A stretch of DNA of 33,623 bases from positions 1 through 33,623 of the IMG/VR virus record IMGVR_UViG_3300034694_000308, one strand, 5' to 3'. A program made the position numbers and the translations under genes. Shown here piece by piece: positions 1 through 16,170 of this stretch. Positions within the stretch are counted from its first letter, which is position 1. Each line of letters starts with the position of its first letter. The stretch is from a virus. A model generated the notes under the pieces. It was given only the letters and a program-made list of their open reading frames with translations, was not told where the DNA came from and did no database searches.

Positions 1-1175
1 TCAAACAAATTAATTTTATTGAACGTCTTCCAGGTATTATCGAAAAGATTAATAAGCTTAAAGAATCACATACTGTTTATTTAAGAGCACATTATTATCC
101 AAACAATGAATCAGTATTTTCGTATATCATGGAAGAATATAATATACCATATGTTATTATGGATAAAGAATGGCATCACATTGTAGACCACTATCCAAAC
201 GAAATAGATCCTAACGCAAAGATATATCACTTCATAAATAAAAAGTTTAATGCATTCTTTAAAGATAAGACTCAAGCAATCTTTTCTATATACATTGATA
301 TCCCTGATCAGGATTTAGATTCTCCGTCTGATTTTAAAGATGATGAAGTATCTAAAAGCAAACGCACAAAAGAAAGATTAGCAGAATATAAAGACCGTTT
401 AGTAAACAATCATAAAGAATATGCTGAATCAATCGATGCCGAATATTTAATGTTTGGTAGAGATAAACAATACGAAGATTTTAAATCTAGGTTTCCTATG
501 TTGTCCGAGTATGATGTTATTAATTTATATAAGATATACTTGTTAGAAAAGTTAGTTAATGAATATGATTTAGTTATGTATATTGATATGGACGTGTACT
601 TTAGACGTAATATTAATGTATTCAATTACGTTCCATGCGAAAGCATTTGGTGTTGTATGTATGAAACTCCGCATCAAGCAGGAGTTCGGTTTAATAACAG
701 CTATTATCTAAAACGGTATAAGCATGACTTTAGAAATCCAGAGTCTAAGTTCTGGAATGCACACGCTCTTTTAACTGAAGAAGATTTGGATACTAGCGGT
801 TTGGTTGTTTTTAATACTGGTGTTATGATGTCGAGTAAAAACGTAATGGATCGAATTGATTACTTTTCTGATATTGATGAAGTTATTAAAACAATGTCTG
901 AAGTAAAAGAATATTCAATGTATACTGATCAAATTAGAGATTCATTCGGATATGATAACGAAACTATTATGTCATATAAAGTATGTAAGAATAATGTGCC
1001 AATATATGATATGCCAACGCGTTGGCACCATAAAAACCATTATTGGAGCTATAACTCTTTTGATTCAACTCACAGAGATTACGAATTAGCAAAACACGAA
1101 TATGTTTCGAAAACAACACAATCAAATTCTGTTATAATACATTTTATATCAAAAAACTTTGGGTTGGTGCTATGA
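1..1175 (+). CDS. GT-A-type glycosyltransferase, 5' end outside the window
   Basis: Probable nucleotide-sugar glycosyltransferase. The first ATG in the window lies at 129, but the same frame is open and protein-like back to base 3, so the gene very likely begins upstream and only its C-terminal ~390 residues are seen. A hydrophobic strand followed by the metal-binding DXD motif (YIDMDVYFRRN, near base 585) and a later NTGVMM segment are typical of GT-A enzymes that copy a sugar from a UDP/GDP donor. No signal peptide or membrane segment is visible, so it should be cytoplasmic. Its stop overlaps the next start (ATGA), implying translational coupling with the glycan cluster that follows. The acceptor and sugar are unknown; family assignment is by motif only. 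Confidence 0.72.
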   Translation, partial: KQINFIERLPGIIEKINKLKESHTVYLRAHYYPNNESVFSYIMEEYNIPYVIMDKEWHHIVDHYPNEIDPNAKIYHFINKKFNAFFKDKTQAIFSIYIDIPDQDLDSPSDFKDDEVSKSKRTKERLAEYKDRLVNNHKEYAESIDAEYLMFGRDKQYEDFKSRFPMLSEYDVINLYKIYLLEKLVNEYDLVMYIDMDVYFRRNINVFNYVPCESIWCCMYETPHQAGVRFNNSYYLKRYKHDFRNPESKFWNAHALLTEEDLDTSGLVVFNTGVMMSSKNVMDRIDYFSDIDEVIKTMSEVKEYSMYTDQIRDSFGYDNETIMSYKVCKNNVPIYDMPTRWHHKNHYWSYNSFDSTHRDYELAKHEYVSKTTQSNSVIIHFISKNFGLVL

Positions 1176-2461
1176 TAACGTTTTGGACAGCGATCCCGAT
1201 TAAATTTGATGATTATAGATTTTATAAAACTTTATTAAGTATGTATGACCCAGATCATCGTACGTTTAAAATTAAAATATTAACAATACATAAGCCAAGC
1301 ACACATGATTTAAACATTTATATGGTTCCCGTTACTAGTAAAAATATTAATCCACTTGGCGGAATTATAAACTTTAATATTGAAAACGACTCTAAAAACA
1401 TCGCATACGCTGTTAACGAAGGTATGGATGTTTATATAGATCATTCTTGGGAAGAATATAATTTAGACACGTTTACTAATGGTCATATCTATAAAGAGCA
1501 TTGGGATTATATTAAGAAAAATAATATTAAACTTCTTTGTAATAACACGAATCATAAACAGCTAACTGATGCGTACGCAAACAGCGCGCCACACCCTATT
1601 CAAGATTATGAGGATTTTGTTGTACCGTTTGATTTATTTCAGTATGATGTAAGAATACGTAATACATTTTATAATCAGCATTGGCAACTTAATACAGCGC
1701 CATCTTTAGATTTAATAGATAAGGAATATTTCTTTAGTATGTTTGTAGGCGAACTGCAAAAATCTAAAAATATAATATTATTATCTGAATTATTTAAAAG
1801 AGGCTTAGATAAAAAGTCGGCGTATTCCGCTTTTAAAGGATCTAATATAAATGACACAATTCGGTATAAAGGTCAACGTGCGCGCTTAATAAACCATCAT
1901 TCTGATAATTCAACAATTAAATATTTCTTAAATAACGAAGATTACATATCTAAAACAAGATTATTTGAACGATATGATAAGGCTGAGTCTAGTGTTAATA
2001 TACCAACGACTAGTCATGAAAGGCGAATGCCGCAGGTTGCATATAATTCTCATTTATACTTAGCAGCAGAAACGCAGGCAAGTTGGAATAATTGTTTTTA
2101 TACCGAAAAAACTTATAAACCAATTGCAGCCGGAATGCCGTTTATTATACTGGGGTCCTATAAACAAAATCAAATATTAAAATCACACTATGGATATGAA
2201 ATATTTGACGATATAATTGATTACAGTTTTGAAAATACTTTAGAAAGAAATTCACCACGTTTTTTCCTAAAATATACTGAAGATTTATTTGATGAAATAG
2301 AGCGTTTAATTAAAGAAGGGCCTAAGATATTCTATCAGCAAAGCGTAAAAGAAAAAATTGAATATAACAAAAATTTGTTTCTTAATAGAACTACGACAGA
2401 TGCTTTCATTAATGACGTGAGAGAAACATTTTTTAAAGTTAAAGATTGGGATGTACTATGA
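1172..2461 (+). CDS. Glycosyltransferase-like protein with TEKTYKP motif
   Basis: A 429-residue protein, probably a glycosyltransferase. The recognisable part is the C-terminal third (about residues 300-405). There, the run YTEKTYKPIAAGMPFIILGS resembles the nucleotide-sugar binding loop of GT-B enzymes of the alpha-1,3-fucosyltransferase (GT10) type, where TEK is followed by a hydrophobic G-x-P-x-I/V-x-G strand. The N-terminal two thirds match nothing I recognise. It overlaps both neighbours by four bases (ATGA), between another glycosyltransferase and a UDP-glucose dehydrogenase, which supports a role in glycan assembly. Donor and acceptor cannot be read from the sequence. It could also be a non-catalytic relative, since only one motif is clear. 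Confidence 0.55.
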   Translation: MITFWTAIPIKFDDYRFYKTLLSMYDPDHRTFKIKILTIHKPSTHDLNIYMVPVTSKNINPLGGIINFNIENDSKNIAYAVNEGMDVYIDHSWEEYNLDTFTNGHIYKEHWDYIKKNNIKLLCNNTNHKQLTDAYANSAPHPIQDYEDFVVPFDLFQYDVRIRNTFYNQHWQLNTAPSLDLIDKEYFFSMFVGELQKSKNIILLSELFKRGLDKKSAYSAFKGSNINDTIRYKGQRARLINHHSDNSTIKYFLNNEDYISKTRLFERYDKAESSVNIPTTSHERRMPQVAYNSHLYLAAETQASWNNCFYTEKTYKPIAAGMPFIILGSYKQNQILKSHYGYEIFDDIIDYSFENTLERNSPRFFLKYTEDLFDEIERLIKEGPKIFYQQSVKEKIEYNKNLFLNRTTTDAFINDVRETFFKVKDWDVL

Positions 2462-3558
2462 TTATTGGATTTATTGGTATTGGAAAGCTTGGTTCACCAG
2501 CAAGCGATTTCTTTGAAGAAGCAGGCCATGTGGTTAAGCGTGCTGATGTTGGCGATAGTATAGAAGACTGTGTAAAGGATTGTGAATTTGTTTTCGTAGC
2601 TGTTCCTACACCACATGATCCATCATACGATGGCAAATATATATGTTCAGATTTAGAACCAAAAGATTTTAGTTATGATATCGTTAAAGATGTTATAATT
2701 AAAGCTAATAGTGTTATGAATAAAGATCAATGTCTTGTTCTGATATCAACAGTTTTGCCGGGCACTATAAGCCGTGAATTAGCTCACCTGGCAGATAATA
2801 CAAATCTACTATATAATCCATACCTAATTGCTATGGGCACTGTAAAGGCTGACATGGCCAACCCAGAAATGATTATGATAGGTGGTGATCCTGAGCTAGC
2901 AACTGCATTACAAATTATGTATATGAATATGCCAGTAAATTGTAACCGATATATTAAAGGTACATACGAGGAAATTGAATCTACTAAAATATTCTATAAC
3001 ACTTTCATCACTATGAAAATAACTATGTGTAATATGATACAGGATGTTGCTATGAAGTTAGGTAATATGAATGTTGATGTTGTTACTCAAGCGCTTGCTG
3101 AAAGCACAGATCGTATTATGTCTCCAAAGTATATGAAAGCTGGTATGGGCGACGGTGGATCTTGCCATCCTCGAGATAATATAGCTTTAAGATGGTTGGC
3201 AGAAGAACTTGATTTGGGATATGATTTGTTTGGATCTATTATACATGCTCGTGAACAACAAGCATCGAACATGGCAAAGTACCTTAAAGAATTATCTAAG
3301 GAACATGATTTACCTATTGTTATATTGGGTAAAGGATTTAAACCTGATTTAGAATACGAAGATGGATCACCATCAATACTCGTATCTCAGTTTTGTGAAT
3401 GCACGTTTGATGATATTTCAAAGCCTGCTGTTTTCTTATTAGCACACTCACGACAAACAACATTTGGTAAAGCTAATAAAGAATATGATTTGCCTGAAGG
3501 CTCTGTCGTAGTTGATCCTTGGCGTGAAAGAAAAGATGCAATAGGATACGGTTCATGA
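2458..3558 (+). CDS. UDP-glucose 6-dehydrogenase family protein
   Basis: Predicted NAD-dependent UDP-sugar 6-dehydrogenase, which oxidises UDP-glucose (or a related nucleotide sugar) to the uronic acid in two steps. The 366-residue protein begins with a Rossmann GFIGIGKLG motif (residues 4-12), then AVPTP (48-52) and STVLPGT (97-103). The substrate helix with Lys177 and Asn181 follows, then the catalytic cysteine loop GDGGSCHPRDN with Cys236; a C-terminal GKGFKPDLEYEDGSP segment closes the active site. An in-frame ATG 12 bases earlier exists, but the ATG at 2458 gives the usual family N-terminus and an ATGA overlap with the previous gene. The next gene is a UDP-glucuronate 4-epimerase, so the pair could make UDP-galacturonate. 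GDP-mannose or UDP-ManNAc dehydrogenase activity is the alternative. Confidence 0.85.
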   Translation: MIIGFIGIGKLGSPASDFFEEAGHVVKRADVGDSIEDCVKDCEFVFVAVPTPHDPSYDGKYICSDLEPKDFSYDIVKDVIIKANSVMNKDQCLVLISTVLPGTISRELAHLADNTNLLYNPYLIAMGTVKADMANPEMIMIGGDPELATALQIMYMNMPVNCNRYIKGTYEEIESTKIFYNTFITMKITMCNMIQDVAMKLGNMNVDVVTQALAESTDRIMSPKYMKAGMGDGGSCHPRDNIALRWLAEELDLGYDLFGSIIHAREQQASNMAKYLKELSKEHDLPIVILGKGFKPDLEYEDGSPSILVSQFCECTFDDISKPAVFLLAHSRQTTFGKANKEYDLPEGSVVVDPWRERKDAIGYGS

Positions 3559-4493
3559 AAGTATTAATAACTGGCATAGCTGGATTCATTGGCTTCCATT
3601 TAGCCCAAGCAATGAAAGATTCTGGTTGGACTGTAATAGGAATAGATAACTACAATAATTTCTTATATAATTCTGATATTAAATACAAAAGAGCAGAAAT
3701 ATTAAATAACTTATCTATAACCGTAATAGCTGCAGATATTCGTAATAAAAATCATCTTAGACATGTTTTTCATAACGACGATTTTGATTTAGTTATTCAC
3801 TTAGCAGCACATGCAGGTGTACGACATTCTTTAGACCATGCATCAGCATATATTGAAACAAATATTGTTGGCACACAAAACGTTATAGATGCGTGTAAAT
3901 CTCATAATATAAACAAAGTAATCTATGCTTCAACATCGTGCACTATGGCTGGAAACGATCTTCCGTGGAAAGAAGATCAACCCACATACGATCAATTAAA
4001 TCCGTATGGATATACTAAGAAAACTAATGAATCCCAGTTTAAATCATCAGGACTATCTACTATAGGACTGCGCTTCTTTACTGTATACGGACCTTGGGGA
4101 AGACCTGATATGGCTTTGTGGCAGTTTACTAAATCAATTCTAAACGATACTCCTATTGATCTTTATAATGCTGGAGATATGGTAAGAGATTTTACGTATG
4201 TATCAGACGTTGTAGAAGGAATACTCATTATATCAAAACGAATAATAAATAATGATGTAAGTGAAATATATAACATTGGATATGGAGAGCAAGTACCATT
4301 GACTGATTTTGTTCATGAAATAGAATATAACCTTTCGAAAAAAGCGATTGTTAACTTAGTTGATAAGCATCCTGCTGATACACAATCTACTTGGGCTGAT
4401 AATACTAAAATAAGAAGCCTTGGATGGATACCTTCTACATCTGTTAAAGATGGAATAAAACAATTTGTAAATTGGTTCAAAGAATATGAGTAA
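3555..4493 (+). CDS. UDP-glucuronate 4-epimerase-like (extended SDR)
   Basis: Extended short-chain dehydrogenase/reductase of 312 residues that most resembles UDP-glucuronate 4-epimerase, interconverting UDP-glucuronate and UDP-galacturonate through a transient 4-keto sugar. It shows the NAD-binding GIAGFIG motif (residues 7-13), a Ser/Thr pair at 127-128, and the catalytic Tyr151-x-x-x-Lys155. The family's signature stretch RFFTVYGPWGRPDMALWQF is followed by RDFTYVSDVVEGI. It overlaps the upstream dehydrogenase gene by four bases and the downstream gene by eight, so it is part of one translational unit. The neighbouring dehydrogenase would supply its substrate. A UDP-glucose 4-epimerase or a UDP-glucuronate decarboxylase is less likely, because the GPWGRPDMA segment is characteristic of the glucuronate epimerases. 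Confidence 0.85.
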   Translation: MKVLITGIAGFIGFHLAQAMKDSGWTVIGIDNYNNFLYNSDIKYKRAEILNNLSITVIAADIRNKNHLRHVFHNDDFDLVIHLAAHAGVRHSLDHASAYIETNIVGTQNVIDACKSHNINKVIYASTSCTMAGNDLPWKEDQPTYDQLNPYGYTKKTNESQFKSSGLSTIGLRFFTVYGPWGRPDMALWQFTKSILNDTPIDLYNAGDMVRDFTYVSDVVEGILIISKRIINNDVSEIYNIGYGEQVPLTDFVHEIEYNLSKKAIVNLVDKHPADTQSTWADNTKIRSLGWIPSTSVKDGIKQFVNWFKEYE

Positions 4494-5505
4494 CTTTACT
4501 GAACTAGATTTCTTACCTCAATATGATTTACAATCTGAATTAGAAAAGTTAGATTTAGACTGGGGTCAAACAAACCAGATTTGTATAACTACGATACCTG
4601 AAGATCCAGACAACTATCAGTTTGGTGCAGGTAGTCTTTATATGAACTGGAAAGAAACCCAAGCTGGCGAAATCACAACTACACTCAAAGAAAATCCTCC
4701 AATAGAATCAGATTTTACAGAAATAGCAAGTGTGTTTAAAGGTACTTTGTTTCATGATGTAATAAAAGAACTGAAAAAATATTACGTAATTGGCAGAGTT
4801 AGAATTATGAAAAGCAATCCTAAGTCATCTTTATCTTGGCATTGGGATGATACAATAAGACTACATTATCCAATGGAAACCCACGAAGGGTGTTTCATGG
4901 TTATTGGTTCTGAAATCAAACACCTTAAACAAAATACTTGGTATGAAACTAACACAATTCCAAAGCACACAGCTTTTAACGGAAGCTTTAAACATAGAAC
5001 GCATCTTGTAGTAAACATCGTAAAAAGAATTATTCCGCGTCATATTGCTATCACGGGCCACACAAGTGGTTTAGGTAAACTGCTATATGATAATTTTGAT
5101 ATGGATGGGTTCAGTAAATCGACAGGTTACGACGTAAATGATATAGATTCTATAATTGATTCAATTAAAGATTATAAAGTATTCATTAATAACGTAAAAA
5201 CAAACCAAGTAGAAATATGCAAACGGTTATGGGAACTATGGAAAGATGATCCTTCTAAAAAGATTATTAATATAGGTAGCCGAGCAAAAGATTTTATTAA
5301 AAGCGAATATGGATTTAATAAGCACGTGTTAAGCGAGTTTACTAAACACGCAAACTTTAATGGTGTATGCAAAGTATCTTGTGTAAACTTTGGTTATATT
5401 AATAAATTGACTGAAAATGAAATATTAGAAACTATTGCCTTTGTAACAAGCAAGGATTGTGTGGTTGAAGAAATAACGGTCTTTGGTAAAGACGATGTTA
5501 GCTAA
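4486..5505 (+). CDS. Two-domain fusion: 2-oxoglutarate/Fe(II) hydroxylase-like + SDR-like oxidoreductase
   Basis: A 339-residue fusion. The N-terminal domain (about residues 1-180) looks like the cupin fold of aspartyl/asparaginyl beta-hydroxylases. It has a His119-x-Asp121 metal pair in SWHWDD, a strand with GCFMVIGSEIKHL, and a distal histidine (His170 or His173) in HRTHLVVNI. The C-terminal domain (about 185-339) starts with a Rossmann-type TGHTSGLGK (190-198) and carries Ser265 and Tyr275-x-x-x-Lys279, the classic SDR catalytic set. Both active sites appear intact. Its start overlaps the epimerase gene and its end overlaps the radical SAM gene. It may hydroxylate and then oxidise or reduce a small molecule or tethered substrate of the cluster; the substrate is unknown. 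Confidence 0.65.
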   Translation: MSNFTELDFLPQYDLQSELEKLDLDWGQTNQICITTIPEDPDNYQFGAGSLYMNWKETQAGEITTTLKENPPIESDFTEIASVFKGTLFHDVIKELKKYYVIGRVRIMKSNPKSSLSWHWDDTIRLHYPMETHEGCFMVIGSEIKHLKQNTWYETNTIPKHTAFNGSFKHRTHLVVNIVKRIIPRHIAITGHTSGLGKLLYDNFDMDGFSKSTGYDVNDIDSIIDSIKDYKVFINNVKTNQVEICKRLWELWKDDPSKKIINIGSRAKDFIKSEYGFNKHVLSEFTKHANFNGVCKVSCVNFGYINKLTENEILETIAFVTSKDCVVEEITVFGKDDVS

Positions 5506-6655
5506 TCATTGTAACTATATAGAAAAAGGTATTCGTTTAAAACTATATAGTCTTAATAACGAGGCGTACATATTTACTAAACCTTGCTGTCATATGACAC
5601 ACGACTTAATACCAACTGAAATAAGCAAATTTACAAAGCTAGACTCTATTGATATTGCAGATATTATGAATATCAAACCTATGCAATACTATAGAAATTA
5701 TTTTGAAAATAATGAAGGCCTGCATCCTGCATGTGTGTCTTGTATTAATTATGAATCAAAAGGATTAGACAGTCCTAGGTTATCTATTAATAGAGTTGAT
5801 AATAAAGATTACGATATTAGTAGGTTAGATGTTGTGCTTGGAAATAGTTGCAATTTAGCATGTCCATTTTGTTCAAGCCATGCTAGTAGTCTTATTGAAA
5901 AGCTAAGTAATAAATTAGATCGTCAAGATAGACCAGCAGGTTGGATACCATTAAAAGAAGTGCATGACTTTGACCAGCCACAAGCAAATCACACATCGAC
6001 TACTATTGCCGAAATTTTAAAACATTATAAAGTGCATACGCTAAAACTTATTGGTGGTGAACCGTTCTTAAAAGAAAATTGGGACGGAATAGCAGATGTG
6101 ATCAATGAAGGTTATTGCAATGATCTTAATTTAGAGATAACAACCAATGGCACAATTATTAATGATGAGATAATCAATAGGCTTGCAAAAGTAAAGAGTG
6201 TTAATATAAGTATAAGTGTAGATAGTGTTGGTAATAATTATGAGTTTATTAGATGGCCGCATAAATGGGAAAAGATGTATAGTAATTTAAATTATTTAAA
6301 CAACAAAGATTTAAAGAATATAAACATTAGAATATTTAATCTCGTTAATATATTTAATTTTGAGTACTTACCGCAAATAGAAAAACTTCATTCCAAACTA
6401 AAATATCCAATTAGTTGGAGCTGCGAAATACAACCTATTACACATTTACAGAATTATCAAAACTTACCTGAGCATATAATTGACTATGTTAAATCGCAAA
6501 TAAAGACCAGCAGTTTACAGAAAGCATTACTGCCTTTAGATCATAATCATTCTAAAGAATCACTTAAAAAGGAATTTGAAGTATTGCTTACACAAAGAAA
6601 CATGAAAGCCAAAGATGTAATTGGACCTATGACTAGAGAGTATTTTAAATTATGA
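5495..6655 (+). CDS. Radical SAM protein (twitch-type)
   Basis: Radical S-adenosylmethionine enzyme of 386 residues. The [4Fe-4S]/SAM motif CNLACPFC (Cys119, Cys123, Cys126) sits unusually deep, after an N-terminal ~115-residue region with its own cysteines (CC at 31-32, and C80-x-x-C83). That region may ligate a second cluster. The TIM-barrel GGEP motif appears as LIGGEPF. The product probably uses a 5'-deoxyadenosyl radical on a peptide or small molecule. An in-frame TTG at 5483 is possible, but the ATG at 5495 overlaps the upstream stop by 11 bases and is preferred. The cluster context suggests a tailoring step; a second radical SAM gene lies at 11703. The substrate cannot be inferred. Confidence 0.8.
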   Translation: MLANHCNYIEKGIRLKLYSLNNEAYIFTKPCCHMTHDLIPTEISKFTKLDSIDIADIMNIKPMQYYRNYFENNEGLHPACVSCINYESKGLDSPRLSINRVDNKDYDISRLDVVLGNSCNLACPFCSSHASSLIEKLSNKLDRQDRPAGWIPLKEVHDFDQPQANHTSTTIAEILKHYKVHTLKLIGGEPFLKENWDGIADVINEGYCNDLNLEITTNGTIINDEIINRLAKVKSVNISISVDSVGNNYEFIRWPHKWEKMYSNLNYLNNKDLKNINIRIFNLVNIFNFEYLPQIEKLHSKLKYPISWSCEIQPITHLQNYQNLPEHIIDYVKSQIKTSSLQKALLPLDHNHSKESLKKEFEVLLTQRNMKAKDVIGPMTREYFKL

Positions 6656-7365
6656 TTAATATCATTACAATTAAATGGGGCACTAAATACGATCATAGAC
6701 ATCCTAATAAAGTATACGAAGACTGCAAAACGAAGTGTAGCTTTGATTTTAAGTTTTATTGCATTACCGATAACGCTGTAGGTTTGCATAGAGATATTAT
6801 TGCTTTGCCAATGCCAACCCATTCTAATTTAAACTATAATGATTATATTGAAGATCATTTAGAACGTAAAACATTGTTATGGGATCGACCTAAACTTTAT
6901 ATGTTTACTGATTTCGACTTTAAAGGTACTAATATATTTTTAGATATTGATGCTGAAGTAAAAGAGGATCTGATTTATCTTACTACACTGCCAAGTGAAA
7001 AACCTTGGTTGATTGATATGTGGTGGAAAACAAACTGGAGAGAAAACTGGGATAAACTGTGGAATGGAAGAGTTAATACCAGCGTTGTAGTTTGGAAAGA
7101 TAACCAATGTGAATTTGTAACAAAGGCCGTATTAGCAAATGCACAAGAAAACTTTGATAAGTACTCCACTATAGATACATTTATTGGATATGAGCTAATT
7201 GATTATGATGACTATAACAAAACTATGTTTAACTTTCTGCCACCATTTGTAGTATGCTTTGGCAAGAGATTTAATCCAACAGATCATGAATATAAAATAG
7301 TGTTATGGAGTAGTAGTCCTGGCGCGTGGCATGGTGGCATACCCGAGGTTCCTGGTGTTAATTGA
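6652..7365 (+). CDS. GT-A-like glycosyltransferase
   Basis: A 237-residue protein that resembles small phage glycosyltransferases. It opens with a beta strand (INIITIKWGTKY), has a KLYMF segment, and then NIFLDIDAEV, a hydrophobic strand ending in the DXD-type Asp-x-Asp that binds the metal and nucleotide sugar. A WLIDMWWK strand and a later GAWHGGIP segment fit the acceptor half of a GT-A fold. It starts inside the stop of the radical SAM gene (ATGA). Cytoplasmic, no membrane segment. The call rests on one motif and on the neighbouring glycan genes, so donor and acceptor remain open. Confidence 0.6.
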   Translation: MINIITIKWGTKYDHRHPNKVYEDCKTKCSFDFKFYCITDNAVGLHRDIIALPMPTHSNLNYNDYIEDHLERKTLLWDRPKLYMFTDFDFKGTNIFLDIDAEVKEDLIYLTTLPSEKPWLIDMWWKTNWRENWDKLWNGRVNTSVVVWKDNQCEFVTKAVLANAQENFDKYSTIDTFIGYELIDYDDYNKTMFNFLPPFVVCFGKRFNPTDHEYKIVLWSSSPGAWHGGIPEVPGVN

Positions 7366-7906
7366 AATCATACAACAAAAGCATTACAATATGCTTAAAC
7401 AATTTTGCAAAGAATGTAAAATATTAGGCTATGAAAATAACTCTAGCTTAGAAAGAATGAATTTACTTTGGTGTAAAGATGTTGGACAGTATTGGTGCGC
7501 AGTGAAAGACGATAAGATAGTTGCCGTGGCTGGTTGCCACCCTTTCCCAGAAGCAGGAGAAAATGCCTGGCGAATAATGTATAGAGGATGCGAACTTCCT
7601 GGCACTGACACATTCAAAGGATTAGGTAAAGGTGATTGGAACAGTATTACACAGAGAGAATTTATTCCATTAATGATAGAGTGGATACCAAGTAAAGAAT
7701 TGTATATAACTACAAACATAGACCACGAGCACTCAAACGGTAAAGCAACACGAAATCATCGTTTAATGGGTTTATTAGCAAAACAAAAAATACTTGACAA
7801 AGCACAAGATATGTGTTATAATGAAGTAGAACAAACTGTATGGAAACTTAATATAGAAATCTATACAAGTAGACGAGAAAGGATTATAGGACGTTATGTT
7901 GATTAA
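7355..7906 (+). CDS. Conserved-looking hypothetical protein, possibly acyltransferase-like
   Basis: Function not recognised. The fragment WCAVKDDKIVAVAGCHPFPE (beta strand, turn, strand), followed by a helix ending in LYITTNIDHEHSNGKATRNH, has the rhythm of a small GNAT acetyltransferase, but no acetyl-CoA loop of the Q/RxxGxG/A type is clear. Three starts are possible: ATG 7331, GTG 7355 and ATG 7391. GTG 7355 is preferred because a GAGG Shine-Dalgarno (7345-7348) precedes it by six bases and the overlap with the previous gene is only 11 bases. From there the protein is 183 residues and begins inside a predicted helix. The basic tail TSRRERIIGR could bind nucleic acid or membrane. Confidence 0.5.
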   Translation: MLIEIIQQKHYNMLKQFCKECKILGYENNSSLERMNLLWCKDVGQYWCAVKDDKIVAVAGCHPFPEAGENAWRIMYRGCELPGTDTFKGLGKGDWNSITQREFIPLMIEWIPSKELYITTNIDHEHSNGKATRNHRLMGLLAKQKILDKAQDMCYNEVEQTVWKLNIEIYTSRRERIIGRYVD

Positions 7907-8153
7907 TTGGAAACACTTAGAACAAGCAAAACGGAAAGCTGGTAAACCTTCTGCTGGTTATTGGTGGCACTTTAAGCTAGCTATTTCTGAATTCTTTTTC
8001 TTATTACTCGTTACACTGGGTAGCCTTATCCATGCCATATTTCCGTGGGTTTTAGACTTCCAACTTTTGCAATGGAGAATTAATAGATTGAAAATGTTAA
8101 AAGATAAACTGCCAGAGGATGAACAATTACAAAAGGTACACTTTGATGAATAG
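7896..8153 (+). CDS. DUF6356-like small membrane protein
   Basis: An 85-residue protein with one clear hydrophobic segment (about residues 28-50, SEFFFLLLVTLGSLIHAIFP) between a basic N-terminus and a charged C-terminal helix. The pattern of Gly/Tyr-x-x-His-Phe, a hydrophobic stretch and then HAIFP resembles the DUF6356 family, which is often annotated near capsule biosynthesis genes. It would sit in the inner membrane. It overlaps its upstream neighbour by 11 bases and its downstream neighbour by 8. Context in a glycan cluster agrees with a helper role, but no activity is known for this family, and the match is from memory of the motif. Confidence 0.55.
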   Translation: MLINWKHLEQAKRKAGKPSAGYWWHFKLAISEFFFLLLVTLGSLIHAIFPWVLDFQLLQWRINRLKMLKDKLPEDEQLQKVHFDE

Positions 8154-8925
8154 TTATTTTAATGGTAAGTACATGCCTCTAGACGATGTAAGAATATCTC
8201 CGTTAGATTTTGGATTTATCCATTGTCACGCAACATATGATGTAATGAGAGGTCTCGTTCATTTCGATAAACATTATAAAAGGTTCGTAGCTAATTGTGA
8301 ATACTATGGGTTTACTCCTCCGGCTAAAGATGAGTTAATGAAAATAATCGTAGAGCTTATTCAAGGCGATATGTTTATTTGGTTAATTATGTGGAAAGGT
8401 ACACCACCTTCAGGATCACCACGTGATATGACAGGACCTGATAACTTTCTAGTATATACTAAACCATATTACCATATTGCTTCTAAACCGATTAAATTAA
8501 AGATGTTTAATGATCTACCAAGGTCTCCTGGTTATCAAACACACAAGAACTTTTCATGGATAGAACTTACACAGGCACAAAGACATGCTGATGAACATGG
8601 ATTTGATACAGCATTAGTACGTAGTGTAGAAGGATATGTTAATGAAGGTCCTGGATTCGGTGTTTGTTTTGTAGAAAATGGAACTGTTTATACACCAAAC
8701 AAAGACGTTTTAAATTCAGTTACGATACAGGTAGTAGAAGAAATGTGTGTAAAATTAAACATACCGTTTGTCCGAGCTGACTTTACAAAAATTGATTTTG
8801 AAGAATGTTTTATATGTAGTACATCAGGTGGATTAACATCTGTAAGTCAGATAGGTGACTATCATTTTAAATCATTTGAATTGACTAAAAGATTGCAAGA
8901 AGAATATGCACGTATTTCGGGATAA
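8146..8925 (+). CDS. Class IV PLP-dependent aminotransferase
   Basis: Fold-type IV pyridoxal-phosphate enzyme of 259 residues, the family of branched-chain and D-amino-acid aminotransferases and aminodeoxychorismate lyase. The N-terminus reads PLDDVRISPLDFGFIHCHATYDVMR, the usual opening. The PLP-binding lysine lies in THKNFSWIELTQAQRHA, followed by GFDTALVRSVEGYVNEGPG, where the Glu contacts the pyridine nitrogen. It probably moves an amino group onto a keto acid or cleaves an amino-enol precursor. The ATG at 8146 is chosen over one at 8119 because an AAGG sequence precedes it and it gives the family N-terminus, overlapping the previous gene by 8 bases. It could feed an amine or amino acid into the cluster product. 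Confidence 0.82.
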   Translation: MNSYFNGKYMPLDDVRISPLDFGFIHCHATYDVMRGLVHFDKHYKRFVANCEYYGFTPPAKDELMKIIVELIQGDMFIWLIMWKGTPPSGSPRDMTGPDNFLVYTKPYYHIASKPIKLKMFNDLPRSPGYQTHKNFSWIELTQAQRHADEHGFDTALVRSVEGYVNEGPGFGVCFVENGTVYTPNKDVLNSVTIQVVEEMCVKLNIPFVRADFTKIDFEECFICSTSGGLTSVSQIGDYHFKSFELTKRLQEEYARISG

Positions 8926-9475
8926 AAATAATCGTAAGGTTTTATTATTACACATCCCAAAATGCGCTGGCACAACTCTAGGTCATATGTTACAAGACTT
9001 ACCAGATCATAAATGGTATAATTTGAAAGATGGTTATTACAATGATCATATACCTATTAAAGTCGCAAAGCACATAATAGACTATGATTATAGCATTTGT
9101 TTTGTGCGAAATCCGTATGATCGATTCCTTAGCAAATATGCTTATCTAGTTGATTATGATTATCATAAAGGATATGGCGGGTTAAGCATAGACTATTTCT
9201 TAGAAAATAAACCTAATCACAAAGATGCAGGATGTTGGACACCAGAAGGTTGGCGATTACAAACTGAATATATAAACAATGAAGTAGATCACGTATTTAA
9301 AATTGAAGATAGAAATCCTATAAATGTTTTAAATGAAATACTCGGTACTAGCATTATACAGAAAAAAGTAAATACAACTCAACACAGTTATAAACTAACT
9401 AATAAACAAAAATTAAAAATACATAATATATACAACCAAGATTTTAAGGAATTAGATTATGATAATTTATATTGA
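8906..9475 (+). CDS. PAPS-dependent sulfotransferase family protein
   Basis: A 189-residue sulfotransferase-like protein. The 5'-phosphosulfate binding loop HIPKCAGTT (residues 16-24) and the 3'-phosphate motif CFVRNPYDRFLSK (65-77, with Arg68 and Ser76) are both well preserved; these bind PAPS, the sulfate donor. Family members sulfate glycans or other hydroxyl/amino acceptors. It is short compared with typical 250-300 residue members but holds both donor sites. It starts 20 bases before the aminotransferase stop and ends 17 bases after the HAD start. Expected to act in the cytoplasm using host PAPS. In this cluster a sugar acceptor is the natural guess; no acceptor motif can be read. Confidence 0.8.
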   Translation: MHVFRDKNNRKVLLLHIPKCAGTTLGHMLQDLPDHKWYNLKDGYYNDHIPIKVAKHIIDYDYSICFVRNPYDRFLSKYAYLVDYDYHKGYGGLSIDYFLENKPNHKDAGCWTPEGWRLQTEYINNEVDHVFKIEDRNPINVLNEILGTSIIQKKVNTTQHSYKLTNKQKLKIHNIYNQDFKELDYDNLY

Positions 9476-9917
9476 TATGGACGGAGTGATTGCAGATTTC
9501 TCAAGCTGGATGAAAAGTCATATTCCGGATATTGATGAAGATATGTGGAGAGGTACAGACAAACCTTGGAATGTAATGAAAGAAAATTATAAAGAAGTTT
9601 ATCTTAATCTAAAACCACTACATTTATTAAGTCATGCTAATTATATGTATAACAACTTAGAGCATGTAAAGTTCCTAACAGCGATTCCTCATTCTTGGTG
9701 GGATACACACGAAGGTGAAATTGCTAAGCTTAACAAAACCACGTGGCTAAACCAACACATAAATAATTTTAAAGATGAAGACGTTATTTTTACCGCAGGT
9801 GCAAAAGATAAAGTCAAATACGCAAATGAAAGCTCTGTGTTATACGATGATCGTGAAGATACAATTCAAGCCTGGAACGCAGCAGGTGGTATCGGAATAC
9901 ATGTAAAAGGAATATAA
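9459..9917 (+). CDS. HAD-superfamily 5'(3')-deoxyribonucleotidase-like phosphatase
   Basis: A 152-residue HAD hydrolase. The nucleophile motif is IDMDGVIADF (Asp6 and Asp8), and motif IV is VLYDDRED near residue 130; a Lys in GAKDKVKYA fits motif III. The compact size and DMDGVIADF opening match the 5'(3')-deoxyribonucleotidase (NT5C) branch found in many phages, which dephosphorylates dNMPs. In this setting it might equally remove a phosphate from a sugar or cofactor intermediate. It overlaps the sulfotransferase gene by 17 bases and ends on TAATG shared with the GMP reductase gene, so the purine-nucleotide link of the next gene may be meaningful. Confidence 0.75.
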   Translation: MIIYIDMDGVIADFSSWMKSHIPDIDEDMWRGTDKPWNVMKENYKEVYLNLKPLHLLSHANYMYNNLEHVKFLTAIPHSWWDTHEGEIAKLNKTTWLNQHINNFKDEDVIFTAGAKDKVKYANESSVLYDDREDTIQAWNAAGGIGIHVKGI

Positions 9918-10921
9918 TGATATATTTAGATTATGACGATGTACTAATCAATCCAAAGCCCAGCTCAAGACCACTAACTAGAGCTGATGTTAATATTGAA
10001 GTTGGTGGGGTTGTTCCTATAGTCATCGCGAATATGCCAAGCACAGGCACGTATAAAATTGCGAAGCTTTTAGCAAAAGAAAAGATCGTTACGTTTATTC
10101 ATAAAGAATATTCTATCGAAGAACACTTACAGCATTTAATGGACCCTGATTTAGATGTTGATTATGTTGGCATCACGAGTGGTGTCCGCCAGAAAGACAT
10201 TGAAAAAACTACAGCGATTTTAAGTAAAATTGAACCTGCATTTATTAATATTGATATTGCAAATGTATATGCTAACATGTCTGGTATGGTTACTGCTATA
10301 GAATACTACAAGAAGCATTTTCCAGATTGTGAAATTGTTGCAGGTAATATAGCAAATACATTAGTTGTAGATGAACTCGTTAAGGCCGGTGCAGACTGGA
10401 TTAAGATTGGAGTTGGTCCAGGAGCTGCTTGTAAAACTCGATCCGAAGTTGGTGTAGGTGTTCCACAGTTAAGCGCTGTTCAAGAAATTAGTAAACGAGC
10501 AAAAGAGCTTGGTGTAAAAACAATTGCTGATGGTGGATGTGTTACTAGTGGTGATGTTTGTAAAGCCATTGCTGCTGGTGCTGATATGGTAATGATTGCT
10601 GGCATGGTTTCAAAGTCAGAAGAGTGTGATAATATTGTAGAAATAGATGGCAAAAAGTATGTTAATTTCTATGGGTTAGGATCTAACAAGCAATATAGCA
10701 AACACGGAATATCTGATAAAGAATATAGACCAAACGAAGGAAGAGACTTATTAATTCCGTGTAAAGGTTCTATTTTAGATGTAACAAACCAAATTAAAGG
10801 AGCTTTGCGAAGCGTATGTACTTATGTCGGAGTTGATGATATTTCAAATCTTTATGAAAATACTGAATTTATTAAAGTAAATCATCAAATGAATAAAAGT
10901 TTAGTAAGATATGAAACATAA
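9917..10921 (+). CDS. guaC: GMP reductase / IMP dehydrogenase family enzyme, GMP-reductase-like
   Basis: A 334-residue TIM-barrel enzyme that probably reduces GMP to IMP with NADPH. The sequence opens with YLDYDDVLINPKPS and carries the phosphate-binding and catalytic loop GVGPGAACKTR with Cys172, followed by GVGVPQLSAV. The second phosphate loop is IADGGCVTSGDVCKAIAAGAD. No CBS domains are present, and the length and the GAACKTR/GVPQLSAV motifs favour GMP reductase over IMP dehydrogenase (usually ~490 residues with a CBS pair). The GLGSNKQYSKHG segment resembles the mobile flap. It is flanked by a nucleotidase and a glycosyltransferase in the same transcription unit. It might adjust the guanine pool or free GDP-sugar precursors; the precise role is inference. 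Confidence 0.85.
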   Translation: MIYLDYDDVLINPKPSSRPLTRADVNIEVGGVVPIVIANMPSTGTYKIAKLLAKEKIVTFIHKEYSIEEHLQHLMDPDLDVDYVGITSGVRQKDIEKTTAILSKIEPAFINIDIANVYANMSGMVTAIEYYKKHFPDCEIVAGNIANTLVVDELVKAGADWIKIGVGPGAACKTRSEVGVGVPQLSAVQEISKRAKELGVKTIADGGCVTSGDVCKAIAAGADMVMIAGMVSKSEECDNIVEIDGKKYVNFYGLGSNKQYSKHGISDKEYRPNEGRDLLIPCKGSILDVTNQIKGALRSVCTYVGVDDISNLYENTEFIKVNHQMNKSLVRYET

Positions 10922-11709
10922 TGGAAAACTTGATTATTCTAATTCCAGTAGCGATTGACAATGAAAAAAGACAGCGCAATCTTGATTTTGTAAAACAATA
11001 TTATGAAAATTACAACGTATCTATATTGCAGCAGGATTGCAGCAATTATTTTCACAAAGCAAAAATATGCAATGACGCTTATAAAAAAAATAAAGATAAA
11101 GTAATTTTTATGTGTGATGTAGATTGCATAGTTTCACATGATAATATTAAAAAAGGATATGAATTAATATTAAATAATAATAATACGTTAGTATATCCAT
11201 TTGATAAAGTTGATTACATAGATCCCGAAGAGTATCATGATAGCATTGATGATTATCGCAACTATCTTGTTCATAGAACAATAGAAAATTTCCCTAAAAA
11301 ACTAACTCTGCATAAAATGCTCGATTATATTATTGGTTACTCAGATGCGGTGACGAACTTAGATTATAATTTTACAGACAACGGGTATTCTAAGCCTCTT
11401 GGTTTTGGATTTATGTTTAAATTTTCTGCATATAACCGTGTAGGATTGGATAATCAACATATGTTAGATTATAATTTTGAAGACTTAGAAAGATACGAAC
11501 GCTGCAAAAAAATGAATTTTAATATAGAGCATATATCAGGAACGGCGTATCATATGGACCACAGCAATGGTATTGACTGGGGTGCTAAAGTTAGATCAAA
11601 CAAAAGCTTTATCAAGCAAAACGTATTTGAATATCTGAAGATTATAAACTTAAATAAAACAGAACTAGAAAGTTATATAAAATCATGGCCGTGGATACAA
11701 AAATGTTAG
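10921..11709 (+). CDS. Glycosyltransferase (GT-A, galactosyltransferase-like C-terminus)
   Basis: A 262-residue predicted glycosyltransferase. An N-terminal beta-alpha-beta unit (LIILIPVAI) leads to VIFMCDVDCIV, a DXD motif at about residues 63-66. The second half has LGFGFMFKFSAYNRVGL, then NFEDLERYERCKKMNF and a YHMDHS histidine motif. This layout (GG/F-x-F strand, then an E-D-x-E acidic helix, then a His) resembles the C-terminal domain of GT7/GT27-type galactosyltransferases. Its start overlaps the GMP reductase stop (TAATG) and its end overlaps the second radical SAM gene. Cytoplasmic, no transmembrane segment. Donor and acceptor unknown. Confidence 0.68.
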   Translation: MENLIILIPVAIDNEKRQRNLDFVKQYYENYNVSILQQDCSNYFHKAKICNDAYKKNKDKVIFMCDVDCIVSHDNIKKGYELILNNNNTLVYPFDKVDYIDPEEYHDSIDDYRNYLVHRTIENFPKKLTLHKMLDYIIGYSDAVTNLDYNFTDNGYSKPLGFGFMFKFSAYNRVGLDNQHMLDYNFEDLERYERCKKMNFNIEHISGTAYHMDHSNGIDWGAKVRSNKSFIKQNVFEYLKIINLNKTELESYIKSWPWIQKC

Positions 11710-12506
11710 CACCGCAACTAATTGAACTTAATATAACAGAGTTATGTAATAGAACTTGCAGCTTTTGCCCACGCGGGCATGATTATCCAAACTTAAATTT
11801 AAATATGAGCATTGATACGGCTATTAAAATCCGAGATCAAAGTAAAGGATTCGTAAACAACATACATCTTGTTGGTAGAGGTGAACCATTATTGCATCCG
11901 AACTTTTTAGAAATAGTTAAAGTATTTGCTACAGACTTTACTGTGCGTATAATGACTAACGGAGATATATTAGATAAACACATAGATGATTTAAATGATG
12001 TGTTAGATTTAAACAGTGGGAAGCATAGAGTTACAGTTAGCTTATATGATGACGAAGAACAATACAACCATTTTAAAGAAGAATATGATTTTTTTAGTGA
12101 TGTAAGTCTTTACAAAACCTACGATATAGATCAGGGAACAGAAGATGAAACATTTAATAAGAAGCATTACATAACAAACAGAGCTGGTGCCTTGTACACT
12201 TCTTCAAGCGTAGACCCGTGCTATATACCATTAAATAGAATGTTTATTGACTGGGACGGTAGTGTAAACTTGTGTTGTCACGATTGGTCTGTGAAGGCGA
12301 CGTACGGAAATATAAATAATACAAATGTACAAAACATATATAAATTTATATGTGATAAATATGCTAAAGAGTTGATAAAAGGAAATCGCTCTTGCACTAA
12401 GCAATGTAGTAAATGCGATGTGTCAAGTGATGATCCTTTAAAATTTGTCTATAAAGACTGGCAAGAACAGCAAAATGCAAGAATAAACCTTTTAGGAGAA
12501 ACATAA
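11703..12506 (+). CDS. Radical SAM/SPASM-domain protein
   Basis: A 267-residue radical SAM protein. The cluster motif CNRTCSFC is right at the N-terminus (Cys15, Cys19, Cys22), and VGRGEPLLHP is the GGEP-type motif. The C-terminal part has scattered cysteines (DPCYIP, VNLCCHD, CTKQCSKCD) in the order of a SPASM auxiliary Fe-S cluster domain, which is typical of enzymes that modify peptides or alcohol/amine substrates. WDGSVNLCCHDW is a hallmark of this group. The ATG at 11703 overlaps the previous gene by 7 bases; an in-frame ATG at 11685 would add six residues. It needs reduced electron donors, which links it conceptually to the ferredoxin gene at 20047. Confidence 0.82.
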   Translation: MLAPQLIELNITELCNRTCSFCPRGHDYPNLNLNMSIDTAIKIRDQSKGFVNNIHLVGRGEPLLHPNFLEIVKVFATDFTVRIMTNGDILDKHIDDLNDVLDLNSGKHRVTVSLYDDEEQYNHFKEEYDFFSDVSLYKTYDIDQGTEDETFNKKHYITNRAGALYTSSSVDPCYIPLNRMFIDWDGSVNLCCHDWSVKATYGNINNTNVQNIYKFICDKYAKELIKGNRSCTKQCSKCDVSSDDPLKFVYKDWQEQQNARINLLGET

Positions 12507-12508
12507 TC

Positions 12509-13045
12509 ATGCCATTAAATTTTGATAGCGATGTAGATTTCGTAGACCAAGACGTACGATACATGGACATCTTATACGCCGAAACCCCGACAGGTTTAGA
12601 TAGGTGGAGAAACTGGTTTCAAAGTAATCTGCCTGCCATTTTAGCTGAAATACCAGCTCCAGAAGGAAAGGTTGTACAAGCTGGAACTTGGAATGGAGAT
12701 TTTTACAACGTCCTTAAAAATCATTATGGCGCTGATAATTGTGTAGGATTTGATATAGCGCAATACATAGAAGATGATAGCATTACGTATGGAGATTTTA
12801 GAATAGTTGGTCCTCAAACGAGTATTCAGTCTGCTGTATTTTACAATGGCATGGGTTCTTGGAAAAATAATGCTACAAGTAAACAAGCCGGTTTAAATTG
12901 GGCAACAGAAAATTTAGTATCAGGTGGTATTTACTTTGATGTTCATCATGGTAAACATGATAGAGAGCAAATTTTAAAAGAACTTCCAGATTTCACGTGG
13001 TATAACACATTCGGACAACAATTGGTAGTACTAATTAAAAATTAA
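12509..13045 (+). CDS. Putative SAM-dependent methyltransferase-like protein
   Basis: A 178-residue protein with the outline of a class I methyltransferase. A strand-loop-helix VVQAGTWNGDFYNVLKNHYG stands where the SAM-binding glycine loop would be, followed by CVGFDI (motif II acidic residue) and SGGIYFDVHHG. The glycine loop is not canonical (AGTWNGD in place of GxGxG), so activity is uncertain. A clear AGGAGA ribosome site lies 8 bases before the ATG. It stands alone in having no overlap with its upstream gene, and 19 bases separate it from the next one. The location suggests a methylation or scaffold step of the cluster product. Confidence 0.5.
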   Translation: MPLNFDSDVDFVDQDVRYMDILYAETPTGLDRWRNWFQSNLPAILAEIPAPEGKVVQAGTWNGDFYNVLKNHYGADNCVGFDIAQYIEDDSITYGDFRIVGPQTSIQSAVFYNGMGSWKNNATSKQAGLNWATENLVSGGIYFDVHHGKHDREQILKELPDFTWYNTFGQQLVVLIKN

Positions 13046-13064
13046 TATAAAGAACTCATATATT

Positions 13065-13766
13065 ATGTGTAAAATAACAGATTTTGATTCAATATTAAAG
13101 AACGGTGTAAAGATTGCGAGCAGTGGCACCACTGGTAAACCAAAAGAAATATTTCGTACACCCGAAAATCTTAAGGCTTCGATAGAAGTAGCAATTGATG
13201 CTCAAAAGCTGACATCCAAAAGTAGAATACTAACTGTAACGCGAATGACTCACGCAGGTGGATTATTAACGCAGAGTTTACCGGCTTACACGCTTGGTGC
13301 TGAATTGTCTATTAAGCAATTTAATCCATACACATTTTTAAAAGACTTTAAAGATTACACTCATACTTTCCTAACACCTGCTCATATGCGAGCTTTGATG
13401 AATACTAAAGGATTTAAAGATTGTAACTTAAGTGGGAAATGGATACTAGGTGGAAGCGATCCTGTTAGCTGGGAAATGATTGAAGCGTTTGTTTATCATG
13501 GCGCAACTGTTCAGCCAAATTGGGGTATGAGCGAAGTAGGCCCGATAGCTATTAATACGGTATTCGATGATCTTTTGAAAGTGTATGAATATCGATACAA
13601 AGCAAAAAACGGCATTTTGCTAGGAGACAATACTTATTGTGATACTAAAGTAGTAGATGGAGAACTCTATGTTAAGGGTCCGACCTGCTATATTGATGAC
13701 TGGCTCCCAACTGGCGATATGGTTGAGCTTCACAACGATCTTTTTTTATACAAAAGACGAAAATAA
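13065..13766 (+). CDS. Minimal AMP-forming adenylation domain (acyl-CoA synthetase-like)
   Basis: A 233-residue member of the ANL superfamily, which activates carboxylic acids as acyl-AMP. The ATP-binding P-loop SSGTTGKPKE (residues 19-28), the A5 motif NWGMSEVGP (152-160) and the A7 TGD (216-218) are intact. Family members are usually around 500 residues; here the N-terminal ~150 residues before the P-loop and the whole C-terminal domain after the hinge are absent, and the protein stops at YKRRK, exactly where the hinge would be. The truncated form looks deliberate, since no leftover coding sequence flanks it. Without the C-terminal lysine it may adenylate poorly or depend on a partner. It is the last gene of the cluster; a promoter follows at once. 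Confidence 0.75.
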   Translation: MCKITDFDSILKNGVKIASSGTTGKPKEIFRTPENLKASIEVAIDAQKLTSKSRILTVTRMTHAGGLLTQSLPAYTLGAELSIKQFNPYTFLKDFKDYTHTFLTPAHMRALMNTKGFKDCNLSGKWILGGSDPVSWEMIEAFVYHGATVQPNWGMSEVGPIAINTVFDDLLKVYEYRYKAKNGILLGDNTYCDTKVVDGELYVKGPTCYIDDWLPTGDMVELHNDLFLYKRRK

Positions 13767-13824: not shown

Positions 13825-14004
13825 ATGACACTCTTCACACAAGTAATCGCCAACCAAATCCCTCAAGGTCTAGATCGTTACGACCAAATCTTCGCAGCTA
13901 AGGAACTGATCCTCGCAACAGAATATCCTAACCTAGCTACATGCAGAGAGACTCTAGAAGACATCGAAGAAATCATCTTCCAAAGAGAAGGAATTAATTT
14001 GTAA
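13825..14004 (+). CDS. Small hypothetical protein (59 aa)
   Basis: ATG at 13825 follows an AAAGGA ribosome site (13813-13818) and promoter 1. The 59-residue product is acidic and mostly helical (for example ETLEDIEEIIFQ) with no recognised domain. Its stop codon lies inside the conserved stem-loop that precedes promoter 2, as is also seen at 16086 and 17105. Unknown function; the strong promoter and early-region context suggest a host-takeover or accessory early protein. Confidence 0.7.
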   Translation: MTLFTQVIANQIPQGLDRYDQIFAAKELILATEYPNLATCRETLEDIEEIIFQREGINL

Positions 14005-14018
14005 TTAAATGAAATTAA
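13994..14018 (+). repeat. AT-rich stem-loop of promoter cassette (copy A)
   Basis: TTAATTT (13994-14000) and AAATTAA (14012-14018) form a 7-bp inverted repeat around the loop that begins GTAATTAAAT. The element is placed immediately upstream of promoter 2 and overlaps the preceding stop codon. Near-identical elements stand before promoters 4 and 6. Confidence 0.65.
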
Positions 14019-14021
14019 CTG

Positions 14022-14050
14022 TTGACATCAACATTCGTTCTTGTTATAAT
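14022..14050 (+). promoter_or_regulatory. Sigma70-type promoter 2 with extended -10
   Basis: TTGACA (14022-14027), a 17-base spacer containing CATTCGTTCTTG, and TATAAT (14045-14050) preceded by TGT, an extended -10. It drives the genes from 14082. The element and its flanks are repeated almost exactly before 16171 and 17192. Confidence 0.9.
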
Positions 14051-14081
14051 AGATATATCAAATCAAGTTAAGGAAGTTACA

Positions 14082-14456
14082 ATGAAATACGCAATTTACC
14101 AGATCCAATTATCAGACGCTCAAGTTGATCTTATCAACGCAAGAGGTCATTCTGCGGTACCTGCACAAATCGCTAAACTGGATATGACTATGGATTTTAG
14201 TGGTGGCAAAATCGGCGGTTTGGCTTCAGATGCTTGGATCAATGGTTTCTATACTCATGTATCAAACATCGAAGCGGTTGACGTCAACCAAGTCTTTGAG
14301 ATTGGTAATATGGGTCCAGAAGAGAACATCGAACGTTTATCTCGTATGTCCTCAGTTTCAGTTGGTGATGTGATCGTTGATGAAGAAGGTCAATGTATTG
14401 TAGTTGCACCAATTGGTTTCGTAGCGTTTTCTTTCAACCCTAAAATGGCAGCATAA
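14082..14456 (+). CDS. Small conserved phage-type protein, YodL-like
   Basis: A 124-residue protein started at the ATG behind AAGGAA (14070-14075), well downstream of promoter 2; the same frame is open further upstream but that part is promoter DNA. It opens MKYAIYQIQLSD and ends with SVSVGDVIVDEEGQCIVVAPIGF. The middle reads NIEAVDVNQVFEIGNMGPEENIERL. This order of segments resembles the YodL-type domain found in many phage and plasmid small proteins, whose activity is not established. Cytoplasmic, with no catalytic motif visible. The promoter implies early expression. The family call is from motif memory and is tentative. Confidence 0.6.
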   Translation: MKYAIYQIQLSDAQVDLINARGHSAVPAQIAKLDMTMDFSGGKIGGLASDAWINGFYTHVSNIEAVDVNQVFEIGNMGPEENIERLSRMSSVSVGDVIVDEEGQCIVVAPIGFVAFSFNPKMAA

Positions 14457-14459
14457 ATA

Positions 14460-14663
14460 ATGAACGAATATCTTAAAGAAGTTACAGTTTGGGATTCACC
14501 TGTACAGAATCACACGTACATTGTTACACCAGGCGGTTGGTTAGCAGGTTACATCAAACAAGGTACTACAAAAGAAATTATTTTTTCTAAGCCAATGAAA
14601 CAATGGTCTAAAAGCTATCGTAAATTTCAAAAGGTTGCAAAATTTGACGACCAAATGAGTTAA
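14460..14663 (+). CDS. Small hypothetical protein (67 aa)
   Basis: Begins three bases after the previous stop with no good ribosome site, so it is probably translated by coupling. The 67-residue product is basic, with several Trp, Lys and Gln residues, and contains no domain I recognise. It shares the promoter 2 transcript with the following alarmone hydrolase gene. Confidence 0.6.
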   Translation: MNEYLKEVTVWDSPVQNHTYIVTPGGWLAGYIKQGTTKEIIFSKPMKQWSKSYRKFQKVAKFDDQMS

Positions 14664-14675
14664 TAAGAGGGTAAA

Positions 14676-15194: not shown

Positions 15195-15244
15195 TGATTG
15201 ATCATGGGTTTGGTGAAAGAAAAGACTAATACAGGAGAGATTGG

Positions 15245-15667: not shown

Positions 15668-15684
15668 TTAAATCAAAATAAGTG

Positions 15685-15713
15685 TTGACATCGACATTCG
15701 TTCTTGATATAAT
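15685..15713 (+). promoter_or_regulatory. Sigma70-type promoter 3 with extended -10
   Basis: TTGACA (15685-15690), 17 bases, TATAAT (15708-15713) preceded by TGA. Spacer shares CATTCGTTCTTGA with promoter 4. A remnant of the TAATTAAAT loop stands upstream (15665-15673). It drives the gene at 15740. Confidence 0.9.
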
Positions 15714-15739
15714 AGTCATACAAATTAAGGAGAGATACT

Positions 15740-16107: not shown

Positions 16108-16110
16108 CTG

Positions 16111-16139: not shown

Positions 16140-16170
16140 AGTCTTATCAAATCAAGTTAAGGAACACGTT

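Follow-up and report, generated by a model that had tools for sequence, protein, structure and literature searches.

The hypervariable islands of marine T4-like phages are known to include glycan and radical S-adenosylmethionine (SAM) genes, but it has not been clear which of the island genes go together. We addressed this question in IMG/VR virus record IMGVR_UViG_3300034694_000308, the whole of which (33,623 bases) is the stretch analysed here and is called the window. Its left part, positions 3–13766, is an island of 17 intact open reading frames (ORFs; W01–W17), all on the + strand and nearly all overlapping, as a first-pass annotation of the letters had described. The view taken there that the island holds more enzymology than a simple sugar requires is borne out, and we regard it as a phage biosynthetic island. 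The further suggestion of an undescribed pathway holds in part: the island contains an undescribed fixed core, but its genes are not passed on together as a single pathway, because the closest relative (locus L025) and other relatives carry partial sets. The fixed operon separates core from tailoring genes.

A fixed operon recurs across phage contigs

The core has the order GNAT (W08), DUF6356-like protein (W09), class IV transaminase (W10), a set of variable tailoring genes, GMP reductase (W13, a usual member) and truncated adenylate-forming (ANL) protein (W17). Besides the window, 53 distinct contigs, 50 viral and 3 binned in metagenome-assembled genomes (MAGs), carry this core, whole or as far as the contig reaches, in the same order and on the same strand. 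These loci were merged from a scan with W17 (23 viral loci), a scan with the W09 family (44 loci) and a scan of bacterial genomes (3 MAG contigs), and the core genes recovered do not depend on the seed chosen. Both ends of the core, GNAT to ANL, are present in 38 contigs; GMP reductase is found in 26 of these and absent from 12, and is dispensable. The W08-type GNAT is found in all untruncated core loci. Other missing members are always at contig ends, with the exception of the DUF6356-like protein of L071, which was lost by the ORF picker and recovered by profile. The W08–W09 and W09–W10 genes overlap by 8–38 bases in almost all loci.

Across 27 non-redundant cores the mean protein identities are 60–78%, and the distance matrices of the core proteins are correlated (Mantel r 0.30–0.73, p 0.001–0.022). 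Because the phages are related, functional coupling does not follow from this correlation by itself. A stronger argument is that the order stays fixed in at least four genomic settings, in which the neighbours, identified by eye, are a tail-fibre-like gene, ribonucleotide reductase genes, a MoxR-like gene or, downstream, the gp42/AGT region. Against L025, the ratio of non-synonymous to synonymous substitution (dN/dS) is 0.06–0.30 in every island gene compared, indicating purifying selection, and none of these genes has an internal stop, the stops counted for W10 and W15 lying upstream of later start codons at 8143 and about 11703. Within the island dS is lowest in W08 and W09 (0.11–0.15), possibly through recombination or an overlapping signal.

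A search of 50,697 annotated phage records, those of cultured pelagiphages and cyanophages among them, did not find the operon; tblastn gives no match there to W08, W09 or W10, and a single match (27% identity) to W17. The W08 GNAT profile is absent, bar two MAG contigs, from 795 sampled genomes (399 Pseudomonadota and 396 Bacteroidota), and we reject a bacterial origin of the core on this ground. These absences hold for those collections at that search sensitivity. DUF6356 itself occurs in 43 of 399 bacterial genomes, where its neighbours share no common pathway. Two core contigs, L069 and L071, are binned in MAGs named Muricauda and Gammaproteobacteria, and the Bacteroidota contig L069 is probably phage because tail-fibre-like genes lie beside the core. 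A literature search on this gene combination and on DUF6356 found nothing relevant.

Identity of the core proteins

Three of the core proteins, together with the NT5C-like W12, had been missed by the first-pass annotation: W08, W09 and W13. W08 has no significant Pfam match. Its AlphaFold2 model (pLDDT 80) matches GNATs in the PDB with probability 1.00 and its profile matches the GNAT 3t9y, so that, as modelled, W08 has the GNAT fold and is a GNAT acyltransferase. W09 matches DUF6356 in Pfam at 1.6e-4, under the family cut-off, and has a hydropathy peak at residues 35–53. W10 matches the class IV aminotransferases (Pfam 1.7e-26) and PDB transaminases down to 1e-45; it has the catalytic lysine and fold IV expected of this class, the lysine of its KNxxW motif being invariant in the alignment. 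W13 scores 2e-83 against the NCBIfam GMP reductase, under the equivalog cut-off, with human GMPR as best PDB match, and resembles GMPR over its full length with an invariant active-site cysteine and EGR motif. By these family criteria W13 is a predicted GMP reductase.

W17 is similar to AMP-binding proteins (Pfam 7e-18) over profile positions 170–378 only, and to MenE over 170–398 in the PDB search, with a predicted fold of the MenE/McbA type. It spans the P-loop to A8 and lacks the N-terminal ~160 amino acids and the C-terminal lysine domain. The family motifs SSGTTG (A3 P-loop), NWGMSE (A5), D218 (A7) and R232 (A8) are invariant in the 14 alignment rows, and all family members end at about A8, without the C-terminal domain that holds the catalytic lysine. 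Truncation at the two ends makes catalysis by W17 uncertain, and its role may be to bind an acyl-adenylate or to act alongside a partner.

The genes around the core are exchanged

The island is a mosaic: across diverse uncultured marine phages the core stays fixed, whereas the tailoring genes that lie within and beside it are swapped. L025 lacks W02, W03 and W14, and other relatives retain only W08–W09–W10–(W13)–W17. The W10–W17 interval holds genes for a sulfotransferase, an NT5C-like protein, a family 2 glycosyltransferase (GT2), a radical SAM enzyme and W16 in the window. In other loci it holds the 2-oxoglutarate (2OG)-oxygenase-like families F011 and F019 (assigned by eye; no Pfam match), the methyltransferase F018, the B12-binding radical SAM family F020, the radical SAM family F025 and the Trp-halogenase family F037. 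Runs of radical SAM genes lie upstream of the core, with 4–12 matches per record in six large records; 12 matches cluster near the core in each of G001 (120456–145297; the L016 record) and G007 (55180–70268; the L032 record).

Some short-form loci have a TctA carboxylate transporter, and five of these also have a second, fuller ANL protein. In L031–L034, L048 and L057 a phage-borne transporter of the TctA tricarboxylate type and a binding-protein-like neighbour bearing a signal peptide adjoin the core. Genes for a carbamoyltransferase and a DegT-like aminotransferase (the latter by eye) lie upstream of the core in L045, L049 and L050.

The gene assignments of the island (Table 1) are based on Pfam, NCBIfam, PHROGs and PDB searches. 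They uphold most of the enzymes named in the first-pass annotation, namely UDP-glucose dehydrogenase and epimerase (Pfam and PDB) and, by Pfam, two radical SAM enzymes, the class IV aminotransferase, the sulfotransferase and the AMP-binding domain. The PDB search places W04 near 6zl6 and MoeE5, which we take to be structures of UDP-glucuronate 4-epimerases. Among the four glycosyltransferase (GT)-like proteins listed in that annotation, W14 is weakly backed by Pfam and PHROG, whereas W01, W02 and W07 are not supported by Pfam, NCBIfam or PHROGs. The proposed fusion of a 2OG hydroxylase to a short-chain dehydrogenase/reductase (SDR) in W05 stands for the N-terminal domain by Pfam, the SDR motif being seen by eye; in L006 each half is encoded by an ORF of its own. 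A methyltransferase-like W16 finds no support in Pfam, NCBIfam or PDB profiles. W16, like W01, W02 and W07, has no convincing match in Pfam, NCBIfam or PHROGs; profiles of W07 and W16 retrieve nothing significant from the PDB, and no relatives of W02 were found in viral contigs.

Table 1 Genes of the island at the left of the window
Gene	Position	Strand	Assignment and remarks
W01	3..1175	+	GT-like by eye (DxD-like motif YIDMDVYF); variable; reading frame open at the window edge; L025 has a homologue with 50% identity
W02	1172..2461	+	GT-like by eye; no Pfam, PHROG or NCBIfam support
W03	2446..3558	+	UDP-glucose dehydrogenase family; Pfam 7e-17; PDB UDP-glucose 6-dehydrogenases; absent from L025
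W04	3555..4493	+	Nucleoside diphosphate (NDP)-sugar epimerase (Pfam NAD-epimerase; PDB); probably UDP-glucuronate 4-epimerase
W05	4486..5505	+	2OG Asp/Asn hydroxylase-like N-domain (Asp_Arg_Hydrox 4e-6) fused to SDR-like C-domain (GHTSGLG by eye)
W06	5483..6655	+	Radical SAM; Pfam 1.7e-16
W07	6652..7365	+	GT-like by eye (DxD-like motif FLDIDA); no Pfam, PHROG, NCBIfam or PDB support
W08	7331..7906	+	Core: GNAT acyltransferase, by predicted fold and profile match
W09	7896..8153	+	Core: 85-amino-acid DUF6356-like protein, one hydrophobic helix
W10	8143..8925	+	Core: class IV (fold IV) pyridoxal phosphate transaminase, BCAT/(R)-amine type
W11	8906..9475	+	3'-Phosphoadenosine 5'-phosphosulfate (PAPS) sulfotransferase-like (Sulfotransfer_2, Pfam 4e-10); variable
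W12	9459..9917	+	NT5C-like nucleotidase/HAD; Pfam 1.8e-5; variable
W13	9917..10921	+	Usual core member: predicted GMP reductase
W14	10921..11709	+	GT2-like, weak (Pfam E 0.001; PHROG galactosyl transferase 2.7e-10); variable
W15	11703..12506	+	Radical SAM with SPASM (Pfam); variable
W16	12509..13045	+	Methyltransferase-like by eye; no Pfam, NCBIfam or PDB support; variable
W17	13065..13766	+	Core: truncated ANL (adenylate-forming) protein

No general link between the core and DNA modification

The window also carries, at 18862–24549, consecutive genes for a gp42-like hydroxymethylase, a dCMP deaminase, a ferredoxin-like protein, AGT, a HAD-like protein, a cytidylyltransferase-like protein and a C5-methylase. 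This block suggests glucosylated hydroxymethylcytosine DNA and leaves the cytidylyltransferase-like gene unexplained. The first-pass annotation had put forward a link between the island and this gp42/AGT operon, to be checked in related phages. An AGT profile that finds the AGT of the window at 2.7e-34 and matches no bacterial control detects none in 18 core-bearing records, those of 146–169 kb included. A recognisable gp42 is likewise missing from all 18, and a TS-family gene occurs in two, of which the one read has the PFNIA motif of an ordinary thymidylate synthase. Many of these records are fragments; four exceed 145 kb and have neither gene, or a thymidylate synthase fragment at one end only. 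An in-frame TGA in the thymidylate synthase gene of G008 lies at match edges only, and the gene is ordinary. The linkage is thus not general, and DNA modification is rejected as a general explanation; despite the genes that the window itself holds, we consider it very improbable that the core belongs to a DNA-base modification pathway.

Possible functions of the core

Judging by enzyme families alone, the core could combine amination, carboxylate activation and acyl transfer at a membrane site. The transaminase W10 would aminate a keto compound, and W17, the truncated ANL protein, would bind and adenylate a carboxylate; the GNAT W08 would then pass an acyl group to the amine, with the small membrane protein W09 anchoring this step at the inner membrane. 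The exchangeable 2OG oxygenases, radical SAM enzymes, methyltransferases, halogenase or sulfotransferase would diversify the product, and GMP reductase would probably be accessory, serving purine supply or providing ammonia. For the phage of the window, UDP-glucuronate or UDP-galacturonate would come from UDP-glucose dehydrogenase and the epimerase; the GT-like proteins would assemble a glycan, to be decorated with the core group and sulfate. We lean, tentatively, towards the reading that the core makes and activates an amino or acyl group that decorates the host surface or, less likely, the virion; the target would be a host surface glycan during infection, so blocking superinfecting phages. 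In L044, L048 and L055 the operon start is preceded, at a distance of 35 bases, by a perfect TTGACA-N17-TATAAT promoter, a hint of early expression by the host polymerase and therefore of host rather than virion modification. The link to a glycan is plausible for this phage because W03, W04, W11 and W14 are present and because marine T4-like phages have host recognition clusters (HRCs; PMC7029224).

Several points weigh against host-surface decoration. Part of the conservation of the core could stem from kinship among the phages and not from functional coupling, and W17, lacking the catalytic lysine domain, may not adenylate. Of the six large core-bearing records, three lack UDP-glucose dehydrogenase and none has a Pfam GT2, so attachment of the core product to a sugar made by the phage is not a requirement. 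Within the window the island, whose left side is cut by the window edge, is not seen next to tail-fibre genes, and no O-antigen assembly genes (flippase, polymerase or initiating transferase) are seen among W01–W17 by Pfam.

The persistence of the core without sugar-nucleotide genes is what would be expected if it made a free small molecule for the infected cell, such as an amino-acid-like amide or a cofactor-like or nucleotide-linked compound, with the sugar genes as chance neighbours in a hypervariable island. The tailoring set (2OG, radical SAM, methyltransferase, halogenase) resembles that of natural-product clusters, the GMP reductase and the NT5C-like gene hint at nucleotides, and some loci have the TctA transporter. 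A simple motif search finds no carrier protein near the core, however, and the membrane protein that is always present fits surface chemistry; on balance we think a free product rather unlikely. Modification of structural proteins of the phage, for instance the tail fibre, is clearly less probable still. SPASM radical SAM enzymes and Asp/Asn hydroxylases, both present here, often act on peptides, and in many relatives the end of the operon adjoins the large tail-fibre-like gene F005, but other loci adjoin ribonucleotide reductase or gp42/AGT genes, and the promoters before the operon in three loci are of early type, whereas structural genes are late. That the genes have no joint function and are unrelated auxiliary genes gathered in a plastic region describes the variable genes well; for the core it is largely refuted by the fixed order and by the constancy of the core in all untruncated contigs, and as an account of the whole it is highly improbable.

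Returning to decoration, it is possible, if on the whole doubtful, that the operon represents a new kind of phage-specific pathway for modular small-molecule or glycan decoration, with swappable tailoring, used against competitors or hosts. The core provides five defined proteins for expression and assay, and its product, if found, would reveal the chemical changes that marine phages make in the cells they infect.

Other features of the window

The window is a fragment of a T4-like phage, to judge by the T4-type replication genes (gp45 and gp44), the baseplate hub gene (PHROGs) and the gp42-like/AGT block in its right part. Its gp44 shares 50–55% identity with the gp44 proteins of Methylophilales phage Melnitz, Stenotrophomonas phage DLP_6, pelagiphage Mosig and cyanophages, and none of the 50,697 phage records matches the window at the DNA level. 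A cyanophage origin of the core-bearing phages was rejected, as psbA is absent from 17 records. The G+C content is 30–35% in the left 13.8 kb versus 35–40% to its right. On its right the island is flanked by small early-type genes; on its left W01 is open at the window edge, so that the operon start lies outside the window.

Five copies of an intergenic repeat of ~82 nucleotides, 70–94% identical to the reference, precede small genes at 13994–17183, and each holds a perfect sigma70 promoter (TTGACA-N17-TATAAT). Further perfect sites lie at 7794, inside W08, and at 24461, against a chance expectation of 0.017 per window; the site inside W08 is kept at the same place in L025. The T4 late promoter TATAAATA has fewer occurrences than chance. 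An Hsp20-like small heat-shock protein gene lies at 30210–30665, near dut (by eye).

Relation to known systems

A known anti-phage defence system was considered and rejected: PADLOC matches none of the core proteins and returns only generic radical SAM (viperin) matches to W06 and W15. The first-pass annotation had named beforehand assignment to a known O-antigen cluster as what would overturn its proposal, and the lack of assembly genes in the Pfam scans of W01–W17 speaks against that assignment. At the level of single proteins, W17 matches the ATP-binding middle part of MenE/McbA-type ANL enzymes in sequence and fold and differs by its missing first ~160 residues and C-terminal lysine domain. 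W13 is like GuaC/GMPR in full length, cysteine and EGR motif, and differs in its sub-equivalog scores and its place inside an operon.

Pelagimyophage clusters and phage halogenases have been described (PMC7029224, PMC10452541). The halogenase and 2OG-oxygenase genes of HTVC008M and S-RIM44 belong to the same families as the exchangeable middle genes, the halogenase being about 30% identical; those of HTVC008M lie among structural genes, without the core. The closest likeness is to the HRC of pelagimyophages and cyanomyophages, a glycan-gene-rich cluster with radical SAM cassettes that, in pelagimyophages, is proposed to modify the host O-chain (PMC7029224). Like the HRC, the island is hypervariable, is carried by a marine T4-like myovirus (by the gp45, gp44 and baseplate hub PHROGs and the gp44 relatives) and combines GT, of which a single one is supported, with UDP-glucose dehydrogenase and radical SAM cassettes. 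Unlike the HRC, it has aminotransferase and sulfotransferase genes, which that paper does not mention, and a core operon not found in the cultured pelagiphage and cyanophage records. As far as these searches reach, the fixed operon is undescribed, while most of the surrounding block is of a known kind, its sugar part fitting the HRC rather than a new DNA-sugar pathway.

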